From: a bacterium
Lineage (GTDB): Bacteria; Patescibacteriota; Saccharimonadia; Saccharimonadales; UBA4665
Direction: 5' to 3'
Length of the DNA: 39,334 nt
NCBI GenBank assembly: GCA_021804085.1
Contig: JAJZKM010000007.1
Span: forward strand, 1 to 39,334
The notes beneath the pieces are model-generated. The model made no database searches, was not told where the DNA came from, and worked only from the letters and a program-made list of their open reading frames with translations. The translations under genes and the position numbers were made by a program. Positions 1,226-39,027 of the stretch are shown here, piece by piece (position 1 is the first letter of the stretch; every line of letters starts with the position of its first letter).

Positions 1226-1789
1226 CTACCCTACTCGTTTAACCTGCAAGCTGTCTAATTCAACAGGTGTTTCGCGACCAAACATATTTACTAGTACTTT
1301 CAATTTACCTTTTTGTAAGTCAATTTCGCTAATGCTCCCATCAAATCCTTTGAATGGTCCGTCTGTTATATTTACGACGTCTCCAATCTCGTAATCAATT
1401 TTGTGCTTTGGCTGTTCTAATCCCATGCGCTTTTGAATTTTTTCAATTTCATCTTGTTCTATAGGAGTTGGATCTGTGCCACTACCTACAAAACCAGTAA
1501 CGCTAGGAGTGTTCCGTACAGTATACCAAGCATCTTCACTAAGCTTCATTTGTACCAGAACATACCCTTGAAAAATTTTCTTTTCTACTACTCGTCGCTT
1601 GCCGTTTTTTATTTCGATCATTTTTTCTTTCGGGACCAGCACTTCGTATATTTTATCACCCATATCTAGACTATCTGCTCGTTGTCTAATACTTTCGGCG
1701 ACTTTTTCTTCATATCCACTGTATGTATGAATTGCATACCAACGTTTATTGGTGTCATATCTCTTACTGTTCGTGGTAGTCATGGTCAT
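1226..1789 (-). CDS. nusG: Transcription termination/antitermination protein NusG
   Basis: KRWYAIHTYSGYEEKV...IFQGYVLVQMKL...TGFVG, KOW motif GDVVNITDGPFKGFDGSISEID. Confidence 0.98.
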   Translation of the reverse strand: MTMTTTNSKRYDTNKRWYAIHTYSGYEEKVAESIRQRADSLDMGDKIYEVLVPKEKMIEIKNGKRRVVEKKIFQGYVLVQMKLSEDAWYTVRNTPSVTGFVGSGTDPTPIEQDEIEKIQKRMGLEQPKHKIDYEIGDVVNITDGPFKGFDGSISEIDLQKGKLKVLVNMFGRETPVELDSLQVKRVG

Positions 1790-1808
1790 GTGATATCCTC
1801 CTCTGTTT

Positions 1809-2186
1809 TTAATTATGTTTACCTAAAATAATATTCTTGAATAGATGGCTCAGGCCGTAATCAAGCGTAGCCACTATAGCGCCAATAACAATAGCAAAAG
1901 CAAGTACAGCCATTGTTAGGCGGATTGAAGTTTTTCGATCTGGCCATGTAACCATCCGAATTTCTTTCCAGCTATTACGAAAAAAAGTCGGCACAATAAT
2001 TTTACCGATAATCCGAAAAGCTTTATAGCGACCAAAGAATTTAGAACATTTAACGAAAGGTGCTGTTATCACTAATCTTGTTTTTAGATAATTCCGCTTC
2101 TTTTTATTATGCGGCTGATTAGCCTCATTGGCTTTTTCTCTCAAAGATTGTGGTGGTTTGAGTCGGCGCTTTGGTTTCTCCGCCAT
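1809..2186 (-). CDS. secE: Preprotein translocase subunit SecE with N-terminal extension
   Basis: NSWKEIRMVTWPDRKTSIRLTMAVLAFAIVIGAIVATLDYGLSHLF is the SecE signature; directly upstream of nusG. Confidence 0.93.
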   Translation of the reverse strand: MAEKPKRRLKPPQSLREKANEANQPHNKKKRNYLKTRLVITAPFVKCSKFFGRYKAFRIIGKIIVPTFFRNSWKEIRMVTWPDRKTSIRLTMAVLAFAIVIGAIVATLDYGLSHLFKNIILGKHN

Positions 2187-2206
2187 TCTTATATTCTCTC
2201 TTTCCT

Positions 2207-2238
2207 AATTAAAAAGCCTACAATTAATCATTGTAGGC
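2207..2238 (-). terminator. Intrinsic terminator-like hairpin in the secE leader (candidate attenuator)
   Basis: Minus strand GCCTACAAT-GATTA-ATTGTAGGC-TTTTTAATT: 9-bp perfect stem, 5-nt loop, T-run; about 20 nt upstream of secE ATG. Confidence 0.75.
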
Positions 2239-2341
2239 ATCTAATGTCAAGTTTATCACTGCATGCCATTGCCTGACAAGTGCCTGTTTTGTTTTTTACT
2301 CTATGTATATAGTCTTTACTTAGTGATAGTATGTATTTTTA

Positions 2342-3826
2342 GTGACACTGTTTGTGATTGTCTTATTGGTTGCATCTGTAATTGTTGAGCTTGTTTTAGT
2401 GTGTAAACCGATTTGGCGCCATCGGAGGAATTTTGCTAGGTTATTACTTACATTATTGATATTAGAAAGTGTATGGCTGTTGCTTTTGGAACCATTCCAT
2501 ATTTACGTATGGATAATCTCAATAATATCTTTCTACCGTGCTGTAAATATCTATCGCATTTTGAAAAACAGGTTTAGTAATGAGCATTTGTTGTATTCCT
2601 TTCAAAATACATCTCGAAAACTTATCCTTGCTCAAATCATAATCGGAATTATTGGTATATATTTGGATACTCTTAGGGTTTCAAATGATTTGTGGATTTT
2701 TGATGCATTATTGGGTTTATTGATCGCTATCGCTATGACAATAAGCATAGTGCCTATTAAGCGTTCTAGTTCCTTGATTAATGCCGAAAAACTTGCTGTG
2801 AGTAAACTGCCCACTTTGAGCGTGTTGATACCGGCTAGAAATGAGAGTGACTCGCTTAACGAATGTTTGATCTCTTTGTTGGCTTGTAACTACCCAAAAT
2901 TAGAAATAATAGTGTTGGATGATGCTTCGTCGGATAGGCGAACTCCTGAGATAATCAGATCATTTGCGCATGATGGTGTTATCTTTATTCCCGGAAAAGA
3001 ATGCCCATCGAAATGGTTGGCTAAAAATTGGGCTTATCAGCAACTTCTTGATTCTTCTAATGGTGAGTTAGTTTTATTTTGTGGTGCAGATACAAAGTTT
3101 AATCCAAGTGCACTCACAGATTTAGTGAGTGAATTGATGGAGCATGAATTAATGATGTTATCTCTTATGCCGGTTAACGTCTACTCAACTCAAGTAAGAT
3201 ATAGGATTTTGCAACCATTAAGGTATAGCTGGGAAATTGCTCTACCTCGTCGTCTTTTATGGCGTCCACCAGTCTTGTCAACGTGTTGGCTGGCTAAACG
3301 TTCGTTCCTTTTTGGCTCAGGAAGCTTTAAGGCTATTTCGAGACGTATTTCTCCTGAAAGTTACTTTGCAGGAATTGCTTTTCGTAGCCATAAATATAAA
3401 TTTTTACGAACATTGCTGGTTACTAGTAATAAACCAGTAAAAGATCAACTAGAAACCAGCATAAGGGTTAGATATCCACAACTCAGAAGAAGACCTGAGA
3501 TTGTCGCACTATTCACGATGCTTGAAATATTTAATTTTTTTGGCTTAATTCCACTGTCGTTGGTCGCCGGTCTTGATGGAAATTGGATTTTGATGAGTAT
3601 TGGCCTAGTCGGTATTGTATTTTATTTTTTTACTTTCGGTTTCGTTACCTCGTTAACTTATCGGCGATTTGTTTTTTCTGGATATTTTTTTTGGCCTTTG
3701 GCGGTTCTTGTCGATATATGGTTGATTAATGTTTCAATGATTAAATATGAATTTGGAACTGTATCTTGGAAAGGACGAAACATAGATCATTCTGTTATGA
3801 ATCCTCAAGCTGACAATGTTTCGTAG
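2342..3826 (+). CDS. Membrane glycosyltransferase family 2
   Basis: N-terminal TM segments, then LSVLIPARNESDSLNECLISLLACNYPKLEIIVLDDASSD (GT2 fold), C-terminal TM segments; GTG start. Confidence 0.88.
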   Translation: MTLFVIVLLVASVIVELVLVCKPIWRHRRNFARLLLTLLILESVWLLLLEPFHIYVWIISIISFYRAVNIYRILKNRFSNEHLLYSFQNTSRKLILAQIIIGIIGIYLDTLRVSNDLWIFDALLGLLIAIAMTISIVPIKRSSSLINAEKLAVSKLPTLSVLIPARNESDSLNECLISLLACNYPKLEIIVLDDASSDRRTPEIIRSFAHDGVIFIPGKECPSKWLAKNWAYQQLLDSSNGELVLFCGADTKFNPSALTDLVSELMEHELMMLSLMPVNVYSTQVRYRILQPLRYSWEIALPRRLLWRPPVLSTCWLAKRSFLFGSGSFKAISRRISPESYFAGIAFRSHKYKFLRTLLVTSNKPVKDQLETSIRVRYPQLRRRPEIVALFTMLEIFNFFGLIPLSLVAGLDGNWILMSIGLVGIVFYFFTFGFVTSLTYRRFVFSGYFFWPLAVLVDIWLINVSMIKYEFGTVSWKGRNIDHSVMNPQADNVS

Positions 3827-3827
3827 C

Positions 3828-4937
3828 CTAATTAAGGCTTGGAAAGTATATATTAAAAGTCGTACCAACATTAAGTTCACTTTTAAAAGTTATATCAGTA
3901 TTGATTAAATTTGCTAATTTCATTGATACATATAACCCCAAGCCAGTTCCACTAGATTGTCTAGTCCTGTAGTCTTCGGATCTAAAAAATTTGTCAAAAA
4001 TTCGCAATTGGTCAGGTTTACTGATGCCGATTCCCGTATCAATGATATTAATTTCTATTCCTTTTTCATGCTGCTTCGCGGCTATGGTTACTCCACCATT
4101 TGCGGTGTATTTAAGTGCATTGGTAATAATATTTTGTAATATTTCTACAACATACAGTTTTGAAGATCTCAAGGTTTCGAGTTTTGGATCGATAATAGCT
4201 TTAATATATAATCCCTTGTTTGTTGCCGTGCTTTGATAATTGCGAACTAGCTCTTCTATTAAATCAGGGACATTAATATTTTCAGTATCAAAGTTTTCTC
4301 TTCCCCTCTCTGCATGACTAAGCGTAGCTAGATCGTTGATCATATCGGCCAAATAAAGGATTTGGCGATGCGCTTCCTGGAGCGCTTTATCTATCGTCTC
4401 TTGTGGTCCATGCTGCGAAAATATAAGTAATGCATTAGATATATTACCTTCTGCGATTGTAACCGGTGTTCTGAGCTCATGAGACACAACGCTAACAAAT
4501 TCATCTTTCTCGTCCTCAAGAGATTTTTCGTAAGTGATATCTCTTAACATGAGCACATATCCTTCTTGCCCGTCAGCACCGAAGCCTGGATGAACAGGTG
4601 TTATGCTCATATACAAATTAGACATGCTACCATCTTCATATACAATGTGCATGTCTCGATTTGAAGTTGGAATTGTAATATCGTTAATTAATTGTCGCAT
4701 ATCTACTGGCTGATTATTTTTATCCAATGGTTTTAATACATTAGTGAGTGGCTCGCCTGAGTTAAGATTATTACGGTTAAGAATATTCAAAGCCGCACCG
4801 TTAAATAACACAATATTAATATTTTTATCTATTGCTATTACGCCATCCGACATGCTGTTAATTAGGCTAATTAGACGACCATAGGACAAATGCTCAGTGG
4901 GCTCAATGTTTGGTTGCGTTATGTTTTGTGTGTTCAT
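3828..4937 (-). CDS. PAS-domain sensor histidine kinase
   Basis: PAS-like N-terminus, H-box FVSVVSHELRTPVTIAEGNI, N-box LQNIITNALKYT, G-boxes DTGIGIS and SSGTGLGLYVS. Confidence 0.95.
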   Translation of the reverse strand: MNTQNITQPNIEPTEHLSYGRLISLINSMSDGVIAIDKNINIVLFNGAALNILNRNNLNSGEPLTNVLKPLDKNNQPVDMRQLINDITIPTSNRDMHIVYEDGSMSNLYMSITPVHPGFGADGQEGYVLMLRDITYEKSLEDEKDEFVSVVSHELRTPVTIAEGNISNALLIFSQHGPQETIDKALQEAHRQILYLADMINDLATLSHAERGRENFDTENINVPDLIEELVRNYQSTATNKGLYIKAIIDPKLETLRSSKLYVVEILQNIITNALKYTANGGVTIAAKQHEKGIEINIIDTGIGISKPDQLRIFDKFFRSEDYRTRQSSGTGLGLYVSMKLANLINTDITFKSELNVGTTFNIYFPSLN

Positions 4938-4950
4938 ATTAGTCTTTACT

Positions 4951-5685
4951 TTATATCTTGTTTAAATTAATTTCATTATTTTTATTAATAATAATAGGTG
5001 CGAAGTTGTTCAGTTGTCTTCTATTTTCACGAGCTTTAGGTTGCATAGATTCAAGCATATCCCAAAAGTCTTTACCGTGATTCAAATGTTTCGTGTGAGT
5101 AAGTTCATGTAAAATTACATAATCTATTAACTCCCAAGGTAGTTGAACTAGATAAAGATTTAAAACTATTTTCTGTTTCTGGTCACAGCTACCCCAGCGA
5201 CGCCGCATGGCTTTAATGCTGATGCTCGAAAAATTTAGTCCATTGACTGATGCTAAAGAAATTAGACGGGCTGTAAGTAGATTTTCTGCTTGTAGTCGTA
5301 AAGCGCGAGTAGCTGCCAGTATAGCCACTGACTGTACTTCTTCGGACTCTATGCCTAAAAGATGTGGATACTTTATAATTATTTGATTGCCGCTTATGCG
5401 AGAATGAGGTTTAGAGGTGACATTATCTATTGGTTTAAAAGTAAGATGATGTGCTTTTCCTATTTGCTGTCCGTCATAAAGTGGGTTTGTCCTGGTAATT
5501 CGTTCGTTAATCCATGTTTTTCTTGAATTGACAAAATCGACTGCAGCTTGATATGAAGTCCACGTAGGTATTGAAACCCTAATAACACCTTCTGGAGATA
5601 ATGTAATTTTTAAATTTTGATTGGAACGCCGTTTGGTTATTTTTACTGGTCCTACGTTCTCAAGCACAAACGTTTTGCTAGGCAT
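4951..5685 (-). CDS. YgjP-like (DUF45/WLM) zinc metallopeptidase
   Basis: RRRWGSCDQKQKIVLNLYLVQLPWELIDYVILHELTHTKHLNHGKDFWDML. Confidence 0.92.
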   Translation of the reverse strand: MPSKTFVLENVGPVKITKRRSNQNLKITLSPEGVIRVSIPTWTSYQAAVDFVNSRKTWINERITRTNPLYDGQQIGKAHHLTFKPIDNVTSKPHSRISGNQIIIKYPHLLGIESEEVQSVAILAATRALRLQAENLLTARLISLASVNGLNFSSISIKAMRRRWGSCDQKQKIVLNLYLVQLPWELIDYVILHELTHTKHLNHGKDFWDMLESMQPKARENRRQLNNFAPIIINKNNEINLNKI

Positions 5686-5702
5686 TTTTATCTTTCCGAA
5701 AA

Positions 5703-6368
5703 TTATCTGATCATAATGTTTCGTCGACGGGTAGCATCTACTCTTCCTCCGGAGGGGTTTGGAATCAAATTTACTAATCCCGGCTTTGGCAGCCCGGCAC
5801 CTACGTCGTTAACATGCAGCATATTCATATCATGAAGTTTTTTTAGGATTGCCGATAATTGAGTAGAAAATTCATGCTTACCACTTATAACTACATAGTC
5901 TTCCGCGTTTGTTGGGTTTTGCATATAACTTAGTATCGAATCGAAAGTGGTGCGATCTATTGGTGATGAGTAGCGATCATCGACACGGCGTCGATCGCGT
6001 TTTTGTGTTCTCAAAAACGCCGACTCAGCATCTATTTGTATCCAAACAACAAGTGGTTGGGCGTTTGATTTTCTAGATACATCGCGTAATCTGTGACGTT
6101 GAGCTGCACGTAGCGCGTTCGTATCGTAAATTACACTTATCCCAGCTGCAATAAATTCTTCTGTCATATAATCCATTAGTTGAGACACAGCATTGTTTTC
6201 CTGTTTGTCGTAACGAGGATGCTCAAACAAATCGTTACGTATCTTTTCGCCTTGTACATGTGTAGCTCGTAAGTTCTGAGCTAATTGTCTAGCGAAATAA
6301 CTTTTTCCAGCACCCGGATATCCGTAAAGCATTATAAGTAGCGGTTTCGTTAGATCAATTTTACTCAT
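5703..6368 (-). CDS. P-loop AAA_33/zeta-like predicted kinase
   Basis: Walker A GYPGAGKS near N-terminus; VIYDTNALRAAQRHRLR pattern of AAA_33-type kinases. Confidence 0.85.
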   Translation of the reverse strand: MSKIDLTKPLLIMLYGYPGAGKSYFARQLAQNLRATHVQGEKIRNDLFEHPRYDKQENNAVSQLMDYMTEEFIAAGISVIYDTNALRAAQRHRLRDVSRKSNAQPLVVWIQIDAESAFLRTQKRDRRRVDDRYSSPIDRTTFDSILSYMQNPTNAEDYVVISGKHEFSTQLSAILKKLHDMNMLHVNDVGAGLPKPGLVNLIPNPSGGRVDATRRRNIMIR

Positions 6369-6473
6369 TTATATATTATGTATAGCAGATATAAGACTAA
6401 TTGAAAAGTGTTAGTGTTTATTTTTTTAATTAAAAATTTTTTAATTAAATGCTATAGTCTATGCAGTAACATT

Positions 6474-6548
6474 AGGGGTGTCCGTTAATGGCTAAGCGGC
6501 AGCTCTCCAAAAGCTGTGCTGTCGGTTCGAATCCGACCACCCCTGCCA
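6474..6548 (+). tRNA. tRNA-Trp (anticodon CCA)
   Basis: AGGGGTG...CACCCCT acceptor stem, anticodon arm CAGCT-CTCCAAA-AGCTG, T arm GTCGGTTCGAATCCGAC, encoded CCA. Confidence 0.95.
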
Positions 6549-6679
6549 ACTATCTTTTTGTTCTTATTTTTAATCGATGATTAAATTTCAATAGCTCAAT
6601 AATAACTAGTTAGAAGGGTTTGTTAATAGATATTTATTATTTATAAAATAACCAAAAGCAGTATTTAGGAGTTGGGGGG

Positions 6680-6708
6680 TTGCGCTTAAGCTTTGATTTT
6701 TCTATAAT
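6680..6708 (+). promoter_or_regulatory. Predicted promoter for the GT4-GH57-GH15 cluster
   Basis: TTGCGC-N17-TATAAT, about 33 nt upstream of the ATG at 6741. Confidence 0.55.
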
Positions 6709-6740
6709 TTCTAGAGGGCTGAATAAAATCTAAAAAAATA

Positions 6741-7946
6741 ATGAAAGTTTTAATGCTTGGCTGGGAATTGCCGCCACATAATAGTGGTGGTTTGGGGGTA
6801 GCATGTTATCAATTATGTGAGGCTTTGTCTAAAGATGAAGTTGATCTTGAATTTATCCTGCCATACAAAGCTGAGCATAGCATAGAGTTCATGAAAGTCT
6901 CGGCAGCCAGTCCAACTGGTGTTTTGGAGATTATACAATCTGGAATTGCATACGATAGTTATAAATTTATTTATAGTGACGGCCACGAAGAATGGAACGA
7001 CATCTATTCGCAAGTAAGATTCTACGAAAATGCCGTCGCTAACATGTCTAAGAACATTAGTTTTGATATTGTTCATGCTCATGACTGGCTAACTTTCAGA
7101 GCAGCGCTAAGAGTTAAGCAAATAAAGGGTTGCCCGGTTGTGCTGCACGTACATTCTATAGAATCTGATCGTGCAGGTGGAAATCCCGGTAATCCGTTAG
7201 TAAGAGAGATCGAAGAAATATCAATGCTTGCAGCTGATGTGATAGTTGCGGTTAGTCATCTAACAAAACAATCTATAATTCGAGAGTACGGTATTCCTGG
7301 GGATAAGATTGAGGTTGTGCATAATAGCATTGATCGTAATATATTTGACCCAATAGATGATCACAATGCCTATAGGTATTTGAATCAAATGAAGTCTCAG
7401 GGTTACAAGATAGTAACTAATATTGGACGACTTACGGTGCAGAAAGGTCTTGTTAATTTTCTGCATGCTGCGCGAATGGTCATTGACCAAGTTCCTAAAA
7501 CGATTTTTTTAATAGTTGGAAGTGGCGAACAATATCAAGAGCTAGTAACTCTTTCTTCAGATCTAGGTATAGGCGCCAATGTTATATTTACTGGTTTCCA
7601 GCGCGGTAAAAATTGGCGTGATTCGTTTTCAATTTCTGATTTATTTGTTATGCCTTCAGTTTCTGAGCCATTCGGATTAACTCCTCTTGAGGCTGGTTTT
7701 TATGGTGTTCCATCGGTAGTTAGCAAACAGTCTGGTGTAACCGAAATACTGCATAATTGCCTTAAAGTCGATTTTTGGGATGTTGTTGAGATTGCAAATA
7801 AAATCACCGCTGTTATCAAGAGTGATGTTTTAAGGGAAACATTAAGCCAAGAACTAGATAAAGAGCTACTGTCTCTTAGCTGGTCGGAGTCAGCTCGCAA
7901 AATTAAGACTCTATATAATCGTCACCTTGAGGGAGTAACGGCTTGA
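6741..7946 (+). CDS. Glycosyltransferase family 4/glycogen-synthase-like
   Basis: MKVLMLGWELPPHNSGGLGVACYQL; C-terminal domain with SVSEPFGLTPLEAGFYGVPSVVSKQSGVTEIL. Confidence 0.93.
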   Translation: MKVLMLGWELPPHNSGGLGVACYQLCEALSKDEVDLEFILPYKAEHSIEFMKVSAASPTGVLEIIQSGIAYDSYKFIYSDGHEEWNDIYSQVRFYENAVANMSKNISFDIVHAHDWLTFRAALRVKQIKGCPVVLHVHSIESDRAGGNPGNPLVREIEEISMLAADVIVAVSHLTKQSIIREYGIPGDKIEVVHNSIDRNIFDPIDDHNAYRYLNQMKSQGYKIVTNIGRLTVQKGLVNFLHAARMVIDQVPKTIFLIVGSGEQYQELVTLSSDLGIGANVIFTGFQRGKNWRDSFSISDLFVMPSVSEPFGLTPLEAGFYGVPSVVSKQSGVTEILHNCLKVDFWDVVEIANKITAVIKSDVLRETLSQELDKELLSLSWSESARKIKTLYNRHLEGVTA

Positions 7947-9148
7947 AATCAATTCTTATATATCTTCACGTTCATCAACCATTCAGGTTACGACATTACA
8001 CTATATTTGATGCTGGACTAAGCCATGATTATTTTAATTCAGACAATGACCCAAATATGTCTAACCGAAAAATTTTGGATAAAGTAGCGAAGAAAAGTTA
8101 TTTACCTACCAATAAGCGTTTACTTCAATTATTGAAAGATTATCCAGAATTTAAAATTAGCCTATCAATATCTGGCCTTTTATTGGAACAGCTTGAAGCC
8201 TGGCATCCTGAGGTTTTGAAGTCGTTTCAAGAATTGAGTAATACAGGTCGAGTTGAAATAGTTGCTGAAACTTATTATCACAGTCTGGCTTTTTTTTATT
8301 CTCGCAGCGAGTTCGAGACTCAGGTACAAATGCATCGAGACATAATTAAGCGACTGTTTAATCAAGAACCGACTATTTTTCGTAATACTGAGCTTGCATA
8401 TAATAATGATTTGGCTGCATGGGCTCAAGATGCAGGTTATAAGGGAGTAATCGCTGAAGGTTGGGACCAGTATCTTGATTGGAGAAGTCCAAATTACGTA
8501 TATACCCCCATAAGTGCTAAAAATACAAAACTTTTACTTAAGAATTATCGCCTTAGTGATGATATAGCGTTTCGTTTCGGAGATACGAGTTGGAGTGAGT
8601 GGCCCTTAACTGCTGATAAGTTTTCTCATTGGTTAAGTGAAGATAAAGATGCAACAAATTTTAATTTATTTATGGATTATGAAACATTTGGCGAACACCA
8701 ATGGGAAGAATCCGGGATATTAGAGTTTCTTAAAGCTTTGCCTAAAGAATGGTTAAAGACCCCCGAGCATACTTTCATGACCGTGAGTGAAGCAATTAAG
8801 TCAATTGATGCTGTTGGTGATATTGATAGCCCCAATACTGTAACTTGGGCTGACACTGAACGAGATCTAAGTGCATGGCTTGGTAACTCTATGCAACGCC
8901 AAGCCATTGAGGCTCTTTATCGTCTGGAAAGACCATTACTAGATCTTAATGATTGGTCATTAATAGATGATTGGCGTAAACTCCAAACCTCTGACCATTT
9001 CTATTATATGTGTGTTAAATGGTTTGAGGATGGGGATATACATGCGTATTTTAGTCCTTACGATTCGCCATATGACGCATATATTAATTTTATGAATGTA
9101 TATCACGACTTAAAGTCCAGACTTGTAGAAAATGGTGTTAGCGTGTAA
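7943..9148 (+). CDS. Glycoside hydrolase family 57 (alpha-amylase-like)
   Basis: ILIYLHVHQPFRLRHY start, TIFRNTELAYNNDLAAWAQDAGYKGVIAEGWD; TTG start overlapping the GT4 stop (TTGA). Confidence 0.93.
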   Translation: MKSILIYLHVHQPFRLRHYTIFDAGLSHDYFNSDNDPNMSNRKILDKVAKKSYLPTNKRLLQLLKDYPEFKISLSISGLLLEQLEAWHPEVLKSFQELSNTGRVEIVAETYYHSLAFFYSRSEFETQVQMHRDIIKRLFNQEPTIFRNTELAYNNDLAAWAQDAGYKGVIAEGWDQYLDWRSPNYVYTPISAKNTKLLLKNYRLSDDIAFRFGDTSWSEWPLTADKFSHWLSEDKDATNFNLFMDYETFGEHQWEESGILEFLKALPKEWLKTPEHTFMTVSEAIKSIDAVGDIDSPNTVTWADTERDLSAWLGNSMQRQAIEALYRLERPLLDLNDWSLIDDWRKLQTSDHFYYMCVKWFEDGDIHAYFSPYDSPYDAYINFMNVYHDLKSRLVENGVSV

Positions 9149-9170
9149 CTATGAGTAAAAAGGTGGGAAA

Positions 9171-11102
9171 ATGGCACGACCAGTAGTATTAAGTAATGGG
9201 CAACTTTTTGTTGGTCTTGACGATAATGGTCTAGTACATGATTTTTATTATCCATACGTTGGCCTCGACAATCTTACTAACGCAAGAAGCGTCCCCCATA
9301 AAATCGGAATATGGGTAAATGGAGAGTTTTCCTGGGTCGACGATGGATCGTGGGATATTAAAACTGATTTTGAAGATAGGGCCCTGATTAGCCACATTAC
9401 AATGACTTGCGATAAACTAGGGGTTAGCCTGGAGTTTAGGGACTTTGTGGATCAAGAATATACAGCTCTTGTGCGAAGAATAAAGGTTAAAAATCTGTAT
9501 ACCAAAGAGCGTGAAATTCGGATATTTATGCATCAAGTATTTGAGATATCTAGGCGTGGCCGAGCGGACACAGTGCTATATGTCCCTGATGATCATTATA
9601 TTCTTGACTATAAGGGACGATGTTGTCTACTAATTGCTGGAAAATTTGTTGACTCTGGAAATTATGATCAATATGCCGTTGGTAGTTTTGAGATAGAAGG
9701 AAAAGAAGGAACATTTCGTGACGCCGAAGATGGAGAACTTTCCAATAATGCTGTTGAACATGGTGGAGTTGATAGTGTTATACGTTTCGCGAGACGTCTA
9801 GGGGCTGGAAGTAGTTACGAAGTTGATTATTGGGTCGTGGCCGCGGAAAGCCAATATGACGCTCAACTTGTACATACTTATCTTAAGCATTACGATATTA
9901 GTGAACGTGAAGAGTCCGTACGAATCTCTTGGCATGAGTGGATAACACCCGTTACCGAAAAACTTGGTATGTTTAGTGCTGAGCATCATCAAGCAGTTAC
10001 TAAAAGTCTTCTTGTTATCAAGGCTCACTGTGACAGTCGAGGTTCGATACTTGCTAGCGGAGATTCATCTATTTTTAATTACGGACGAGATTATTATTGT
10101 TATTGTTGGCCAAGGGATGCAGCTTACGCTATCTGGCCATTAATTCGTCTTGGTATGTATAGCGAAGCTAAGGGTTTCTTTAATTTCGCCAGAGATACGC
10201 TTCATAATGAGGGCTATATGATGCATAAGTATCAACCCGATAGAGCCATAGGTTCAACCTGGCATCCTCTTGTCCACAACCGTATCAAGGAATTAGCTAT
10301 TCAAGAAGATGAGACTGCCGGTGTTCTATTTATGTTAGGTGAATATTATAAGGCTAGCAAAGATGAAGCATTAATACGAGATTTTTATGATTCATTCATT
10401 GCACCGTGTGCGCATTTTATTGCTAATTATATTGATCCGAATACGGAATTACCCCATGCGAGCTACGATCTTTGGGAAGAAAAATTTATGACTTCAACCT
10501 ATACGGCTAGCACCGTCATTGCCGGTCTTGATACTGCTGTTATTTTTGCAAAATTAATCGAACATGATGATGATGCAATAATCTGGAAAAAATCAGCAGA
10601 TAATATTCGTTCGAATTTATATAAGCTATTTCATCCAGACGGTTATTTGCGTAAAGGTTTTCTTTACGGCAAGGATGCTCCTTTAATTAATGATGACGTC
10701 TTAGATATTTCATCTTTATATGGACCTTATATGTACAGTGGTTTGCCGCTTGACGACCCAATGATTGTCAAAACTGCTGAGCAAGTAAAAACTCGCCTTG
10801 CCGGAGTAACCCCAATAGGTGGTGTAATACGTTATGAGAATGACAATTATTTCCTGAGTAAGAACAAATATGCGGGAAATCCGTGGGTGGTCTGTACTCT
10901 CTGGTTTGCACAATATCTCATTGCCGTGAATCAAAAAGATCAAGCTATGAAATATATACAATGGTCGCTAGATAGACAATTACCTAGCGGAATTATTGCC
11001 GAGCAGTTTGATCCAGAAACCGCACAACCTCTTAGCGTAGCTCCATTAGTATGGAGCCACGCAGAACTAATCAATACGCTGCTTGACTATTACGGTATAT
11101 AG
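9171..11102 (+). CDS. Glycoside hydrolase family 15 (glucoamylase-like)
   Basis: Full-length GH15-type protein: MARPVVLSNGQLFVGLDDNGLVHDFYYPYVG, YYCYCWPRDAAYAIWPLIRLG, ELPHASYDLWEEK. Confidence 0.93.
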   Translation: MARPVVLSNGQLFVGLDDNGLVHDFYYPYVGLDNLTNARSVPHKIGIWVNGEFSWVDDGSWDIKTDFEDRALISHITMTCDKLGVSLEFRDFVDQEYTALVRRIKVKNLYTKEREIRIFMHQVFEISRRGRADTVLYVPDDHYILDYKGRCCLLIAGKFVDSGNYDQYAVGSFEIEGKEGTFRDAEDGELSNNAVEHGGVDSVIRFARRLGAGSSYEVDYWVVAAESQYDAQLVHTYLKHYDISEREESVRISWHEWITPVTEKLGMFSAEHHQAVTKSLLVIKAHCDSRGSILASGDSSIFNYGRDYYCYCWPRDAAYAIWPLIRLGMYSEAKGFFNFARDTLHNEGYMMHKYQPDRAIGSTWHPLVHNRIKELAIQEDETAGVLFMLGEYYKASKDEALIRDFYDSFIAPCAHFIANYIDPNTELPHASYDLWEEKFMTSTYTASTVIAGLDTAVIFAKLIEHDDDAIIWKKSADNIRSNLYKLFHPDGYLRKGFLYGKDAPLINDDVLDISSLYGPYMYSGLPLDDPMIVKTAEQVKTRLAGVTPIGGVIRYENDNYFLSKNKYAGNPWVVCTLWFAQYLIAVNQKDQAMKYIQWSLDRQLPSGIIAEQFDPETAQPLSVAPLVWSHAELINTLLDYYGI

Positions 11103-30989: not shown

Positions 30990-32171
30990 TTATTTGCTAA
31001 TTTTTGTAACAACACCCGCTCCAACTGTGCGACCACCTTCACGTATGGCGAATCTAAGACCCTGGTCCATTGCGATTGGGGAAAGCAATTTTACATTAAA
31101 TGTAATCGTATCACCCGGCATAACCATTTCTTTGTCTGCTGGCAATTCAACTTCGCCGGTTACGTCTGTAGTTCTAAAATAGAACTGAGGCTTATAACCT
31201 TTAAAGAATGGTGTATGACGACCGCCTTCTTCTTTCGTTAAGATATATACTTCACTCTCAAATTCTGTATGTGGCGTAATAGTACCAGGTTTAGCGAGTA
31301 CCTGACCTCTTTCAATATCATCACGCTCAATTCCTCTAAGGAGAATTCCTGCATTATCTCCAGCTCGACCTTCGTCTAGCTGCTTCTTGAATGCTTCGAT
31401 GCCAGTAACTACGGACTTTGCAGTAGGTCGAATTCCGACGATTTCTACTTCCTCGTTCATCTTTACTATGCCGGTTTCAATTCTTCCAGTAGCTACTGTG
31501 CCACGTCCCTTGATCGAAAATACATCTTCAATAGGCATTAAGAATGGTTTATCTAGATCTCGGACAGGCTCAGGAAAGTACTCGTCCATAGCATGCACTA
31601 ACTCCATAATAGAATCTTCGCTAGCCGCATCACCATCTAGTGCTTTAGTTGCAGATCCGCGAATGATTGGACAATTACGATCATAATCGTACTTAGCTAG
31701 AAGATCTCGAATTTCTTCCTCTACAAGATCAACTAGTTCTGGGTCTGCAAGATCCATTTTGTTCATATATACTAAAATACTAGGAACTCCAACTTGGCGT
31801 GCAAGCAATACGTGCTCACGAGTTTGAGGCATAGGGCCGTCTGCTGCGCTAACTACAAGAATTGCACCATCTATTTGAGCAGCACCTGTAATCATATTCT
31901 TTACATAGTCTGCGTGTCCTGGCATATCTACGTGTGCGTAGTGCCGTTTCTCTGTCTCATATTCCTCATGAGCTGTAGCGATGGTTATTCCACGCGCTCT
32001 CTCTTCAGGAGCCTTATCAATTTGATCGTAGGGAACGGCTTTGTTTACGTCGCTAGGTAATAATTTCGCTAAAACTTTAGTGATTGCAGCAGTTAGAGAC
32101 GTTTTTCCGTGGTCCACGTGTCCCATTGTGCCAACATTAATATGTGGCTTAGTACGGTCAAATATAGCCAT
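30990..32171 (-). CDS. tuf: Elongation factor Tu
   Basis: [48 protein letters not shown]. Confidence 0.99.
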
Positions 32172-32589: not shown

Positions 32590-34272
32590 CTAGAGTACTA
32601 CATTGTCCTTAAGAATGTAATTAAGCCAAGCATCAGCGATTGACCTTTGACTTGCTTGAGTGTTCGAAAGAAGTTTTTTACCTTTAAGCTTATCTTTTCG
32701 TTCGCTAAAAAGTCTAGCGATACTAACAACAAGTTCACCTTGAACTAAGAAAATATATCTATCAACCGCTGCTGAATATAAGAAGTTAATAGCATTTCCA
32801 TCATTCATGAGATGGAAATAATGGCCACGCTTCGAGTATCGTGTAATGTTATCAGTAATCTTATCCTTGGTATATTCATTGTCAATAAATCGTAAATCAA
32901 ACTCATCATCAGATGATGTGACAGATACCAAAAATGATCCTCGTTTCAGATGTCTGAACTTTAAAATGTCTATTGCGTGAGATCCAGTTGCACAGAAAAT
33001 TACGTCACTGTTTTTAAGGAGATGTTCAATAGGTACAACTTTCGCTCCATCACATGATGCTTGTACCGCTCGCATCGGGTCAATATCACATATATACGGC
33101 TGAATGCCGCGTTGCTGCAAATATTGAAAGATACCTCTGCCTATTTTTCCGTAGCCGATAATACCGCAGCTTTTATAAGTGATTAATGTATTCAGGTTAC
33201 GTAGCACAGTTTCTGCAGCATGAGCAACTCCATTACCAACTAGCTGATCCTCAAAGCTTTTAAGAGGACTACGTGCCACCGATATAACACGGAGATTTTC
33301 CGGCAGGTTCTTTTCGTATTTTTGATGACCATTTTCCGTATCTTCAATGACACCCAGTAGCTTTTTGCCAAGTCGCTTCTTGATAAAATTGATGCTTTCA
33401 CAGAAATACCCCCCTATGTCAACCATACAAATGTTATCGTATTTTGCTAGTAAGTCTGTCAGTTCTTTTGGATTTTTTGAGATACTTTCTCGGGTAAATT
33501 GATCAAGTATAGGTAAACCTATTTCTTTTAAGGAAGTTAACATCTTCTTGTTAATTGAATTTGGTTTTGGAATTACACCAATAAGATTAAAGTTTTCCTG
33601 CAAACCAAGGATATAGCTTTCAGAACTAGGAATAATATGCGATATCGCAATCACTGATATTTCTTTACTGTGATTATCCGCAATTGATTTAAAAAAGTCG
33701 CGAGGATTTGGCTCGAGTAATTCCTCGATCCTGTCAACTACAGGCATAAAGTGGGGGTCGTCAGCAAAAATTTCCCAATCAATCCACTTGAAGTTGTTTG
33801 ACTCATTAGGGTCAATAATGATATCAGATTTTTCAGTAATATACAGATAGCGAAGGTCGTGATGATAATGTCCAGGTTCTTTTTTGCGAGAATTTTCAGG
33901 TATGTAGTGGCTATCAATATGGAATGGTACGTCCGGATAGCGGTTTAGAACAGGCTGTAATGCAAGATCCTCGACTTTCAGACCTGTTTCTTCTTCTAAC
34001 TCACGTAAGGCAGTCTCGATCGGAGAACTATCGCTTTTTTCAATATGTCCACCTGGTTGCAGTAGTTTACCGAGCGATTTGTGCTGCAAGAGGAGTATCT
34101 TCTGAGTATGTTTGTTAATAACAAAAGCACTAGCTGTTATATGACCTACAAAATTCTTGCGAGAAGTGATATCTTGATCACTTTGATCGAGCTGCTCAGC
34201 TAACAGGCCAAGGCTAACAGTATCGTCCGGATGAATGGTTATGTATTTTTCGTATAATTCTGTAATCTGCAT
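32590..34272 (-). CDS. Nudix hydrolase domain fused to S-adenosylhomocysteine-hydrolase-like NAD-binding protein
   Basis: Nudix box GGHIEKSDSSPIETALRELEEETGL near N-terminus; C-terminal GIIGYGKIGRGIFQYLQQRGIQPYICDIDPMRAVQASCDGAKVV...VIFCATGS resembling the SAHH Rossmann domain. Confidence 0.85.
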   Translation of the reverse strand: MQITELYEKYITIHPDDTVSLGLLAEQLDQSDQDITSRKNFVGHITASAFVINKHTQKILLLQHKSLGKLLQPGGHIEKSDSSPIETALRELEEETGLKVEDLALQPVLNRYPDVPFHIDSHYIPENSRKKEPGHYHHDLRYLYITEKSDIIIDPNESNNFKWIDWEIFADDPHFMPVVDRIEELLEPNPRDFFKSIADNHSKEISVIAISHIIPSSESYILGLQENFNLIGVIPKPNSINKKMLTSLKEIGLPILDQFTRESISKNPKELTDLLAKYDNICMVDIGGYFCESINFIKKRLGKKLLGVIEDTENGHQKYEKNLPENLRVISVARSPLKSFEDQLVGNGVAHAAETVLRNLNTLITYKSCGIIGYGKIGRGIFQYLQQRGIQPYICDIDPMRAVQASCDGAKVVPIEHLLKNSDVIFCATGSHAIDILKFRHLKRGSFLVSVTSSDDEFDLRFIDNEYTKDKITDNITRYSKRGHYFHLMNDGNAINFLYSAAVDRYIFLVQGELVVSIARLFSERKDKLKGKKLLSNTQASQRSIADAWLNYILKDNVVL

Positions 34273-34321
34273 GAATTCTACCGTATTATCTATTATAAAC
34301 CAGACTTTCTTTATAAACTAA

Positions 34322-35305
34322 GTGTTTCAGCATCAAACCATTCATTTATCAATCAGGCCGCACTTATATACTAGACATTACCACTCTAACCCTGAAAATA
34401 GAAGTACGACAGAGGGTATTAACCCAATAGACTTTTATAAAAAGTTCCCTAATGAACAGTCTTGTCGGGATTATCTACAAAATGCTCGTTGGGGAGATAA
34501 CTCAACTTGTCCCAAATGCGGTGTGGTTGACGGTAAGATATATAAACTTAAAGATACTAGACTACTTAAGTGTGCTTTATGTAGACAACCATTTAGCGTA
34601 AGAGTCGGTACTGTCTTTGAGGATTCAGCTATACCACTCCAAAGCTGGTTTCTAGCAGTTTATTTAGCTACGAGTCTTAAGAAAGGTATATGCTCAGTAC
34701 AATTAGCTAAATATTTAGGTATGACTCAAAAATCAGCTTGGCATATGCTTCATAGAATTAGACACAGTGTAAAGTCAACTGTTGATGATAAGCCACTTGA
34801 AGGCATTGTTGAAGTAGACGAGACATACATTGGCTGTAAGACTAAAGAAAGAATTAAGTACGACAATAAGGCTGTAATATTTGGAGCGGTAGAGCGAAAA
34901 GGCAAAGATAAACTTTCTCACGTAAGAAGTCCAGGGGCTAGAGTTCTGCTACCCGAAATAGCAAAAAATATTAGCCCTAAAGCTACCATCTATAGCGATC
35001 AATGGAATGCCTACAAAACTCTAACTAGAAGAGGCTATGCTTATGCTAGCATTAATTACTCTGTCTTAGAGTTCGGTAGAGGCACAGTTCATACAAATAC
35101 GATTGAGGGCGGCATCTGGGATCACTTAAATATAGGACTTAAAGCCATCTACATGGGCGTTAGCCCTAAGCAAGCACTTATCTAAATAATGTGCTAATTT
35201 GTTTATAAATAAAACACTAGGCAGATGACTGTCGGTCAACGTTTTGATAACTGGTTTAACTCTAGTAGTAATAAGAAACTAACCTACAAAACCCTTGTAG
35301 ATTAA
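34322..35305 (+). pseudogene. IS1595-family (ISXO2-like) transposase, C-terminus interrupted by three in-frame TAA codons
   Basis: CPKCGVVDGK zinc ribbon, EVDETYIG, YSDQWNAYKTL, HTNTIEGG; TAA at 35183, 35195 and 35210, then in-frame NTRQMTVGQRFDNWFNSSSNKKLTYKTLVD to TAA at 35303. Confidence 0.85.
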
Positions 35306-35559: not shown

Positions 35560-36174
35560 CTAGTTTGAACTAAAGCCACTTAGAGCTTCGTTGACTTTTT
35601 CAAGGTAAGCTTGTTCTTCATTTGGTTGCAACGCAATTGGGTTATAAGGATATCCATGTGCTAAGTCGTGAGCAAGAACTTCGCCTGTAGCATGAACTAT
35701 ATCTGCTGCCAACTCTGGTCTTTCATGTATATCTAGCCAACTTGTTAACAGAATATTATATACCGAGCCATTTGGTGGAAATTCATATTCCTTTTTACCA
35801 ACTATTACTGAACCGGTGTAGGATCTTTTTATTAACCTAAGGTCATTTACCCTTGGCCCCCCGTAATCTTTCCTAAATGTAGCCTCGTATTCTTCGCATG
35901 TAAAATCGTCTGAAAGCCTTTCTACTCTCCTTACCCCAGTTCGTTCCAGTAATTTTCTTATAAGACTTGTTGGTGGCACATTGTGGTAACCATCATCTAC
36001 ATGCCATTCGACTAATTCAGGGAGGTCAGGGATGAGCCTCCTTATATTCTGATGTAAAGCAGGGTTCCTTAATCCCGCCTCCTCTATTACTAGCGGCTCT
36101 ACGTCACCAAGCAAAGCTTCCATTAAATTAACTGTTGTGTCTAGAGTCGGATTGTGGATCTCGGGATTTGTCAT
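35560..36174 (-). CDS. Hypothetical protein, no family recognised
   Basis: 204-aa ORF in a non-overlapping position, paired with upstream ORF on same strand. Confidence 0.65.
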   Translation of the reverse strand: MTNPEIHNPTLDTTVNLMEALLGDVEPLVIEEAGLRNPALHQNIRRLIPDLPELVEWHVDDGYHNVPPTSLIRKLLERTGVRRVERLSDDFTCEEYEATFRKDYGGPRVNDLRLIKRSYTGSVIVGKKEYEFPPNGSVYNILLTSWLDIHERPELAADIVHATGEVLAHDLAHGYPYNPIALQPNEEQAYLEKVNEALSGFSSN

Positions 36175-36194
36175 AAATTAGCTGTTTTAGGTGC

Positions 36195-36479
36195 CTAACC
36201 TACTGATCTTTGCTCACCTATATCGCTCAGTACACCAGAAATACGCTCGGCAACTTTTTGCCCGAAATCATTGATAGCACGAACAGTTTGTGGGTCTAGC
36301 TCCGTTAATTGAGCTTCACCAGTCACAAAATCAACAACTAAATTCCCAAGAGAAAATAAAGTTTCATATCCCTCGGGCTGAGGAACATATCCAGGCTTCT
36401 TTTCTCTATCTAATTGATCAGGTACACCCGCAAAAACCTTAGCGTTTAGAATATTCCTTAAGCAATCTCTAAGGGTCAT
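36195..36479 (-). CDS. Hypothetical protein (start trimmed to MTLRDCL)
   Basis: ORF track start MSTCTRL lies inside an IS-end repeat; MTLRDCLRNILNAKV at 36479 lies 9 nt after a -10 TATACT. Confidence 0.6.
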   Translation of the reverse strand: MTLRDCLRNILNAKVFAGVPDQLDREKKPGYVPQPEGYETLFSLGNLVVDFVTGEAQLTELDPQTVRAINDFGQKVAERISGVLSDIGEQRSVG

Positions 36480-36488
36480 AATACTGAC

Positions 36489-36517
36489 AGTATACAATAT
36501 TGGTCTACCATCGTCAA
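36489..36517 (-). promoter_or_regulatory. Predicted promoter, implies near-leaderless mRNA for 36195..36479
   Basis: Minus strand TTGACG-N17-TATACT, then 9 nt to ATG. Confidence 0.6.
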
Positions 36518-36530
36518 GTCTTGTGCACGT

Positions 36531-36552
36531 ACTCACTACATCGTGGACACTT
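36531..36552. repeat. IS-end direct repeat copy 1
   Basis: ACTCACTACATCGTGGACACTT. Confidence 0.85.
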
Positions 36553-37490
36553 TTCTACGTAGAATGGTTATTCCTAATGTATCACAAAACTCAGCAGGTG
36601 TTAGGTAGTTTAATGCCTGATGTGGTCTAAAGTAGTGGTAGTCATTAAGCCAAGTAATTATTTGAGCTTCTCTCTCTTCTAATGTCATATGGCTTCGATC
36701 TTCATCTAAGCACTCCTGCTGCAACTTACCGATTAGGTTTTCAACATGAGGTTTATCTTTTGGTGTATGAGGTCTAGTAAAGTATTGGGTGATGCTATGG
36801 CTTTTTAGATAATTGTAGGCGTGTTTGTAGTTTTCACTGCCGTTGTCATTAACAATAACCATTTCTGTGCCAAATATATCTACGGTCTTATCTAGTGCTA
36901 GCATGGCCTGGAAGCTGCTAGGCTGACGGCCTAGATGGATAACTGCTTCCTTGGTGTAAATATCTACCGCTACAAATGCATATTGCTTTACTCCCCCAAG
37001 ATAAATATGCTTCATATCGAATTCAATAACAGTCTTGGGCTTATCTGCCTTAAGTAAATAGGGCTTACGTTGTTTCCAGACTAAGGTCGCCTTCTTGGCT
37101 CTTTTTTTAGCAGCTAATATCTTAGCTCGGAAATAAAGGTTGTAGCGTTTAATTATTCGGCCTATGGTAGCAGCTGAATAGGTAATACCATAATCCCTAA
37201 ATACTACCCTAGCTAATTTCTTAGAAGAAAGATAAGGATAGTCAGTCCTAAGTTTACGAATGAGAGATACAAAGTTAATGTTATAGGTAGCTACTCTAGT
37301 TCTATGTGGCTTGCGACTTAAATCTTCTAGCGAACTAAGATCTCTAGGATTAAACCGTTTATACTATTTGTAGAAATAACTTCTACAGATACCAAAGTGT
37401 CTACAGGTAAGAGAGATGCTGTTACAACTTAGGTAATAGTCTATTACTCTAAGTCGGTTCTTGGCTGCTTTGGTTAATTTAACCGAGCGT
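36536..37490 (-). pseudogene. IS481/IS3-like DDE transposase with one in-frame TAG; approximate 5' boundary
   Basis: SVKLTKAAKNRLRVIDYYLSCNSISLTCRHFGICRSYFYK*YKRFNPRDLSSLEDLSRKPH...continuing in the same frame into MKHIYLGGVKQYAFVAVDIYTKEAVI...VNDNGSENYKH...PKDKPHVENLIGKLQQECLDED. Confidence 0.85.
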
Positions 37491-38262: not shown

Positions 38263-39027
38263 TTATTTAGGGGTACCACAAAGAGTGTCAGCTGATATAG
38301 GAGATATAAGATCTTTTTTTGAAATAGACCCCTCTGCCATGGCTTGTTTCTCAAAATTTCCCACTTTAGACAATAACCTATCCACCTCAACTACATTACG
38401 TTGAAACCAAAAATCTGCAGTCTTAGCTCCTACAACAGTATAATCGTTTGGTTTAGTACCTACGCTAACTATCTGATCAAATTCACCACTCTTATCAACC
38501 GTACTATTAATATTACCAACCGAACACGAATAATCATAAGCACTTGGGATGTAGCTGTGACTACCAGGATTTGGGACACTGAATTGAATATTATCGTCGA
38601 CTACATTTTTCTGCCCATGAGCCTGTATTATTTCAATACCTAATGTCTCAATATCTTTTGAATATGGTAATTCGGATCTTGTAATCTTCTTAAGACTAGG
38701 TGGCATCCCGTACTGTTCACTTATAGTTAATGTAAATCCGTTTTTTTCTGGAAAAATCACCTGACTAGCTTTGACTCTACTACCAAAGCTAGACCAATAA
38801 TTCAGACCAATTTTGCGCGCATTGTTTTGTACTAATAGTACCTTCTCACCTATAGCAGCATATTCATTAGCAAAACGACTTTTATTTTTATTAGAGTTAC
38901 TCACGACATGAGCTGTAGCTGGAGCCTCATGGCCAATACCAACCGCAACCTTACCTAATCCGGTTAACGAAGACACACTCATACAAACCGCTAAACTTGC
39001 TTTACTAAATTCTTTAGAATGTTTCAT
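38263..39027 (-). CDS. Hypothetical protein with signal-peptide-like N-terminus
   Basis: 254-aa ORF starting MKHSKEFSKASLAVCMSVSSLTGLGKVAVGIGHEAPA; strong promoter immediately upstream. Confidence 0.7.
   Translation of the reverse strand: MKHSKEFSKASLAVCMSVSSLTGLGKVAVGIGHEAPATAHVVSNSNKNKSRFANEYAAIGEKVLLVQNNARKIGLNYWSSFGSRVKASQVIFPEKNGFTLTISEQYGMPPSLKKITRSELPYSKDIETLGIEIIQAHGQKNVVDDNIQFSVPNPGSHSYIPSAYDYSCSVGNINSTVDKSGEFDQIVSVGTKPNDYTVVGAKTADFWFQRNVVEVDRLLSKVGNFEKQAMAEGSISKKDLISPISADTLCGTPK

Follow-up and report, generated by a model that had tools for sequence, protein, structure and literature searches.

The window, by which we mean the whole 39,334-nucleotide stretch that was analysed, comes from a Saccharimonadales genome of the phylum Patescibacteriota, whose assembly amounts to 652 kb in 26 contigs and is 81% complete; genome sizes throughout this phylum are about 0.4-2 Mb. 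The gene under study occupies positions 32590-34272 of the reverse strand (stop codon included) and encodes, from an ATG start and with no internal stop, a protein of 560 amino acids in which a Nudix domain is joined to a domain resembling S-adenosylhomocysteine hydrolase (SAHH). The tuf gene (30990-32171) lies on the same strand, where the tuf-S10 ribosomal operon adjoins. On the other side, an IS1595-type element (34306-35213, forward strand) carries a transposase gene (34322-35185) between imperfect inverted repeats (34306-34321 and 35198-35213). Both lie upstream of the fusion gene, whose start codon is 50 bp from the transposase gene and 33 bp from the end of the element; inspection by eye where the inverted repeats end revealed no obvious direct repeat that would indicate a target-site duplication. 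A remnant of an IS3-type integrase is found at 36536-37015. The gene had been described as sitting at the edge of an IS-rich accessory region, which holds for the side with the transposase and the integrase remnant, but not for the side occupied by the ribosomal operon. Pfam gave no match at E 0.1 for two ORFs beside the IS remnant (35560-36536; 204 and 113 amino acids), and for a 254-amino-acid ORF (38263-39027) nothing better than a sub-threshold match. Elsewhere in the window, adjacent genes for glycoside hydrolases of families 57 and 15 (7943-11102) suggest alpha-glucan (glycogen or starch) breakdown in a small genome.

The two-domain architecture proposed for this ORF was confirmed. In Pfam, the Nudix domain (PF00293, E=1.4e-13) covers residues 44-169 (33766-34143, reverse strand) and the AdoHcyase_NAD match (E=2.3e-18) residues 355-497, both above their curated cut-offs. 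The closest solved structure to the Nudix domain is 3fcm, and the domain resembles Nudix hydrolases of the 3fcm/1jrk type in its intact REUxEExGU motif and in having stand-alone close relatives in the host's phylum (L002-L005); it differs from them in being fused to an SAHH-like domain and in its altered box. This box, GGHIEKSDSSPIETALRELEEETGL (residues 74-98; 33979-34053, reverse strand), follows the pattern G-x5-D-x8-REUxEExGU. The exact REUxEExGU and the Asp in place of the first Glu agree with the original prediction, to which one inserted residue has to be added as a correction, the fused box being one residue longer than the canonical G-x5-E-x7-REUxEExGU present in most of the relatives encoded by split genes.

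The SAHH-fold domain extends over residues 188-560 (32593-33711, reverse strand) and comprises a substrate-binding half, an NAD-binding half with the motif GYGKIG (residues 373-378; 33139-33156, reverse strand) and a family-specific C-terminus; every SAHH-like landmark motif that had been quoted for it is present. Residues 236-497 align with adenosylhomocysteinase models of NCBIfam, but the best two of these score 79-90 bits, far short of their curated cut-offs of 275 and 498 bits. An AlphaFold2 model, built with 13 family members, has a mean pLDDT of 87, and its 50 best Foldseek matches in the PDB are all SAHHs or SAHH-like domains (best match, E 7.4e-21 and TM 0.75 normalised on the target). 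Since these matches cover both substrate and NAD domains, the C-terminal domain represents a whole SAHH fold, substrate half included, and the homology to SAHH is strong. The protein is 62% identical to its closest relative (L031), and comparison of the two genes gave, for the two halves, pN values of 0.25 and 0.24 and pS values of 0.83 and 0.85; pN being well under pS in each, purifying selection acts on both domains. Together with the full-length homologs in L031, L032, L033 and L049, this excludes a broken gene or a sequencing artefact.

SAHH is an NAD-dependent enzyme of the methyl cycle that is normally encoded as a stand-alone protein. Crystal structures show that in its active site Glu156 and Asp190 bind the 2'-OH, and Thr157 and Lys186 the 3'-OH of the substrate, Lys186 also acting as acid/base in the redox step. 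The 5'-OH is surrounded by His55, Asp131 and His301, of which Asp131 exchanges the proton at C4'; adenine is bound by Thr57 and Glu59, whereas Cys79 and Asn80 line a putative homocysteine channel (PMC4647836; PMC5414401). These positions were followed in a census of 19 family members aligned with 31 true SAHHs, the latter as a positive control. His55, Thr157, Lys186, Asp190 and the GxGxxG of the NAD site are retained in 19/19, so that the set for 3'-OH oxidation (Lys186 and Asp190 with Thr157) is complete in every member; Asn346 is also retained, and the Glu156 position is occupied by Asp in 17 of the 19. In the window protein, the signature EDTENGHQKYE (residues 310-320; 33313-33345, reverse strand) takes the place of EETTTG of SAHH, with D311 for E156 and T312 equivalent to T157, and VARSPLKSFEDQ (residues 332-343; 33244-33279, reverse strand) contains K338 and D342, equivalent to K186 and D190, together with R334 for D182.

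Other positions set the family apart from SAHH. Asp131, invariant in the 31 SAHHs, is found in none of the 19 members, which have Ile, Met, Val, Thr or His instead, and His301 is replaced by Ser, Asn80 by Lys, Asp182 by Arg and Val304 by Asp in all of them; the residues for C4'-proton exchange and leaving-group handling are thus both missing, and the SAHH gate GHFDVE reads TSSDDE in the window protein (residues 452-457; 32902-32919, reverse strand), with Ser453 for His301. The adenine contacts are gone as well, Thr appearing at position 57 in none of the 18 residues listed and Glu59 in only 3/19, and the Asn191 position is mostly aromatic. Among the new residues, K236, R334, D456 and E313 (window numbering) are invariant in 19/19. 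A C-terminal tail of the KxxxYRY type was detected in 0/19 members, a weak comparison since just 15 of the 31 control SAHHs match the simple pattern used. The altered positions vary no more among the members than the retained ones do, which argues for a changed specificity and chemistry and not for decay. Judged from these residues, the family would have kept 3'-OH oxidation but would neither recognise adenine nor carry out elimination at C4', and a phosphate may be bound by the new Lys of the 5' channel; by alignment to SAHH, a phosphate-binding role can be proposed for the invariant Lys and Arg.

Compared with SAHH itself (AHCY/SAHase; TIGR00936, PF05221/PF00670), the family therefore shares the fold of the substrate and NAD domains, His55, Thr157, Lys186, Asp190, GxGxxG and Asn346, and departs from it in the replacement of Asp131 and His301, in the Asn80 to Lys and Asp182 to Arg changes, in the missing adenine contacts and KxxxYRY-type tail, in scores far under the cut-offs and, in the window protein, in the fused Nudix domain. 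A genuine methyl-cycle SAHH joined by chance to a Nudix domain would explain the identical fold and NAD site and could fill a gap in the host, where a canonical SAHH was not found, an absence of little weight in a genome that is 81% complete. Given that Asp131, His301, Thr57/Glu59 and Asn191 are not conserved, that the scores fall so far below those of adenosylhomocysteinases (at most 90 bits against cut-offs of at least 275), and that the family forms a separate clade on a long branch (100/100), we regard this reading as very improbable and reject it on catalytic residues and scores. AHCYL proteins are regulators of other proteins, and in a similar manner the SAHH-like scaffold could be a pseudo-enzyme that would bind NAD(H) or a nucleotide and regulate its Nudix partner, as the loss of several SAHH catalytic residues would allow. 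K186, D190, T157 and the NAD site are however invariant in 19/19, K236, R334, D456 and E313 equally so, which argues for a different chemistry and not for an absent one, and the SAHH-like protein is often encoded by a separate gene and partnered with non-homologous enzymes; a regulatory role is consequently improbable.

Relatives were searched for with short peptide patterns on GTDB genomes and in plasmids. The genome scan returned 12 relatives, a distribution that is a lower bound because a short-pattern search is not exhaustive; three of them are fusions (L031, L032 and L033), and in the others the Nudix and SAHH-like genes are separate or a Nudix gene was not seen. The plasmid searches added members from Lactiplantibacillus/Pediococcus, Staphylococcus epidermidis, a Streptomycetaceae plasmid and Rhizobium. 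Scored with a profile of the SAHH-like region, the two members found in the host's phylum reach 309 and 484 bits and all other matches there at most 122 bits, and the same profile scored true SAHHs of the PDB at no more than 116 bits. The family occurs in two of the 380 genomes sampled in the phylum, the window genome and one other, and in the same two of 393 in the order, these surveys being overlapping, and vertical inheritance within the host's lineage was rejected on these counts. In the second genome (G361, locus L049) the fused gene lies between mnmA and a ribosomal-protein S16-like gene. A stand-alone Nudix gene of the same phylum (L002:1468-2061), 41% identical to the Nudix half of the window protein, also adjoins mnmA, as does the fused gene of L049 (1495-3180), and the mnmA neighbourhood is possibly an insertion site common to both.

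In a maximum-likelihood tree of the 19 members and 31 SAHHs, the members form one clade apart from the SAHHs, on a long branch and with support of 100/100. The five fused members, whose hosts are Patescibacteria-like, Myxococcota, Bacteroidota and Planctomycetota genomes, group together (97/80), and so do three members partnered with an HD protein (100/100). The fusion is thus common to five distant lineages; the simplest reading of the tree is a single fusion event followed by horizontal transfer, although some hosts are metagenome-assembled genomes in which single contigs, such as L031, may be misbinned. The Patescibacteria-like copies, each a lone fused gene, were probably acquired horizontally. 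A member from a Francisellaceae metagenome-assembled genome (L039:7563-9623) has a C-terminal extension of about 250 amino acids past the SAHH-like domain and a gene for a DUF6891 protein upstream, and neither a Nudix nor an HD partner was seen there. The family was not found in 50,697 phage records, and the sole match among viral contigs (L075, from IMG/VR) encodes a protein 100% identical to that of the Lactiplantibacillus plasmids and is probably plasmid DNA wrongly classed as viral; a phage or viral origin was accordingly rejected. Assignment to a known anti-phage defence protein (PADLOC) was likewise rejected, the only match being a weak one of the Nudix region to PDC-S07 (E 3.6e-4). No NCBIfam models covering family members were found, nor any characterisation of the family, and no description of the fusion or of the plasmid cassettes was found in the literature searched, which left out most subscription journals. 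The fusion is a member of a branch of the SAHH superfamily that has gone unrecognised, moves horizontally and is spread across many phyla and plasmids.

A nucleotide pyrophosphatase-type protein is fused to, adjacent to or near the SAHH-like protein in 16 of the 19 loci, a count drawn from pattern-search and plasmid matches that are not an unbiased sample and that include near kin (L036-L038; L045 with L046). The Nudix domain is fused in five loci; a separate Nudix gene lies upstream in L034 and L035, downstream in L040, L041 and L043, and downstream past an intervening EamA-like transporter in L036-L038. A YedJ/YpgQ-like HD protein is encoded in L044, L045 and L046, and also in L034. In L039, L042 and L047 a pyrophosphatase partner was not seen in the DNA read. 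Partner profiles had no match in the loci of the 31 true SAHHs, which are short (about 2-4 kb). The HD protein matches 3gw7 (YedJ), PRK10119 and 5dqv, which we take to be Bacillus subtilis YpgQ; HD proteins of the YpgQ type convert nucleoside triphosphates to monophosphates. In Bacillota these phosphohydrolases occupy the place that Nudix has in other loci, whereas their fold is unrelated to that of Nudix and they are absent at the window locus. In L031 an HD phosphohydrolase gene (8515-9227), convergent with the fused gene, is frameshifted, either by decay or through an assembly error. Transporters also recur, of the EamA type in L035-L038 and of the MFS type in L044-L046.

The recurring pairing with pyrophosphatases and the loss of Asp131, His301 and the adenine contacts bear out the original view that the fusion does not serve housekeeping SAH recycling. 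The suggested adenosine- or NAD-derived substrate is not supported, the Thr57/Glu59 positions not being conserved. Two loci have neighbours that are informative, and these tend to belong to pyrimidine or general nucleotide metabolism: directly downstream of the fused member in L032 (9740-11453), genes resembling those for a dCTP deaminase, a deoxynucleoside kinase and an NMP kinase follow on the same strand in an operon-like arrangement, and a neighbour in L044 is annotated as orotate phosphoribosyltransferase.

In Bacillota the family is plasmid-borne, as a cassette of MFS, HD and SAHH-like genes; in Lactiplantibacillus plasmids these genes stand alone as a unit of three. In a 24.9-kb plasmid of S. 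epidermidis (NZ_CP121498.1; L068) a family member belongs to a putative cluster (1654-10805), in which a row of genes annotated as LOG-type, ParB-N, HpaB-type hydroxylase, Nudix, Xaa-Pro peptidase, PLP enzyme and pyrE is followed by HD, SAHH-like and split MFS genes; Pfam confirmed the LOG-type and PLP genes and gave no match for ParB-N. This region looks like a nucleotide-based small-molecule cluster, of which no description was found in the literature searched. A self-resistance cassette would be expected to occur in this way, as a free-standing unit in one species and attached to a putative biosynthetic cluster in another, and we infer this role for the MFS-HD-SAHH-like unit.

Among characterised SAHH-fold enzymes with a substrate other than SAH, the nearest is AgmF. 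This NAD-dependent dehydratase completes the biosynthesis of angustmycin A, and its cluster encodes a LOG-type phosphoribohydrolase, a phosphoribosyltransferase and a phosphatase; the enzyme retains the SAHH catalytic set, its essential residues are His56, Asp129, Lys184, Asp188 and His299, and alanine variants of Asp129 and His299 are inactive (PMC8599513). AgmF resembles the family in its SAHH fold, in its non-SAH substrate and, as regards one family locus (the S. epidermidis plasmid), in its nucleotide-handling neighbours; a Nudix fusion is not described for AgmF. The family could accordingly comprise nucleoside-tailoring dehydratases, which would oxidise the position next to the 4' carbon with NAD+, lose a 5' leaving group and re-reduce the product to give a modified nucleoside natural product. 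This reading draws on AgmF as an SAHH-fold precedent for a non-SAH substrate within a nucleotide-handling cluster (PMC8599513), and on the staphylococcal cluster with its LOG, PyrE-annotated, Nudix, HD and MFS genes. Against it, the equivalents of Asp129 and His299 (Asp131 and His301 of SAHH), which AgmF retains and needs, are absent in 19/19, most loci have no genes for sugar or base assembly, and the Lactiplantibacillus cassette consists of three genes only. We consider such a dehydratase unlikely. With both residues missing the family is neither SAHH nor AgmF, and may have in common with them the first step, the oxidation of a ring hydroxyl by NAD+.

Nudix enzymes cleave nucleoside diphosphate-X, and both the Nudix and the HD families act on many other substrates besides. 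With about an even chance of being right, in our estimate, the fusion is a bifunctional nucleotide-processing enzyme acting in two steps, pyrophosphatase cleavage and then NAD-dependent oxidation of the ribose 3'-OH. In the first step, as expected from its family, the Nudix domain would hydrolyse an NTP or other nucleoside diphosphate-X to a nucleoside 5'-monophosphate. In the second, the residues suggest that the SAHH-derived domain would hold a furanose through its 2'- and 3'-hydroxyls and that the retained Lys/Thr/Asp set would carry out the NAD+-dependent oxidation of the 3'-OH. The loss of the Asp responsible for C4'-proton exchange and of the His gate for homocysteine, together with the invariant Lys at the position lining the 5' (homocysteine) channel, points to a substrate with an anionic 5' group, which on this sequence evidence is likely to be a nucleoside such as the monophosphate formed in the first step, and not SAH. 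What the substrate is and what the enzyme does in the cell are the least supported parts of this proposal; the biological role, least certain of all, might be to destroy or convert an unusual or toxic nucleotide, often in combination with export. More tentatively still, and with considerable doubt, the two-step enzyme may be part of a mobile detoxification or self-resistance module, in which the pyrophosphatase would strip a toxic (d)NTP analogue to its monophosphate, C3' oxidation by the SAHH-derived, NAD-dependent enzyme would inactivate it and the transporter would remove the product; the S. epidermidis plasmid would then represent a producer, and the Lactiplantibacillus and Patescibacteria-like copies resistance-only forms. 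No description of C3' oxidation as a nucleotide house-cleaning chemistry was found in the literature searched.

Genome annotation labels members of this family as SAH hydrolases, for example in Lactiplantibacillus plasmids, which would wrongly imply a methyl cycle. An active site altered in the same way throughout the family and a recurring association with two unrelated nucleotide pyrophosphatases suggest instead an unassigned step of nucleotide metabolism and, if the detoxification reading is true, point to an undiscovered inhibitor of the nucleoside type.
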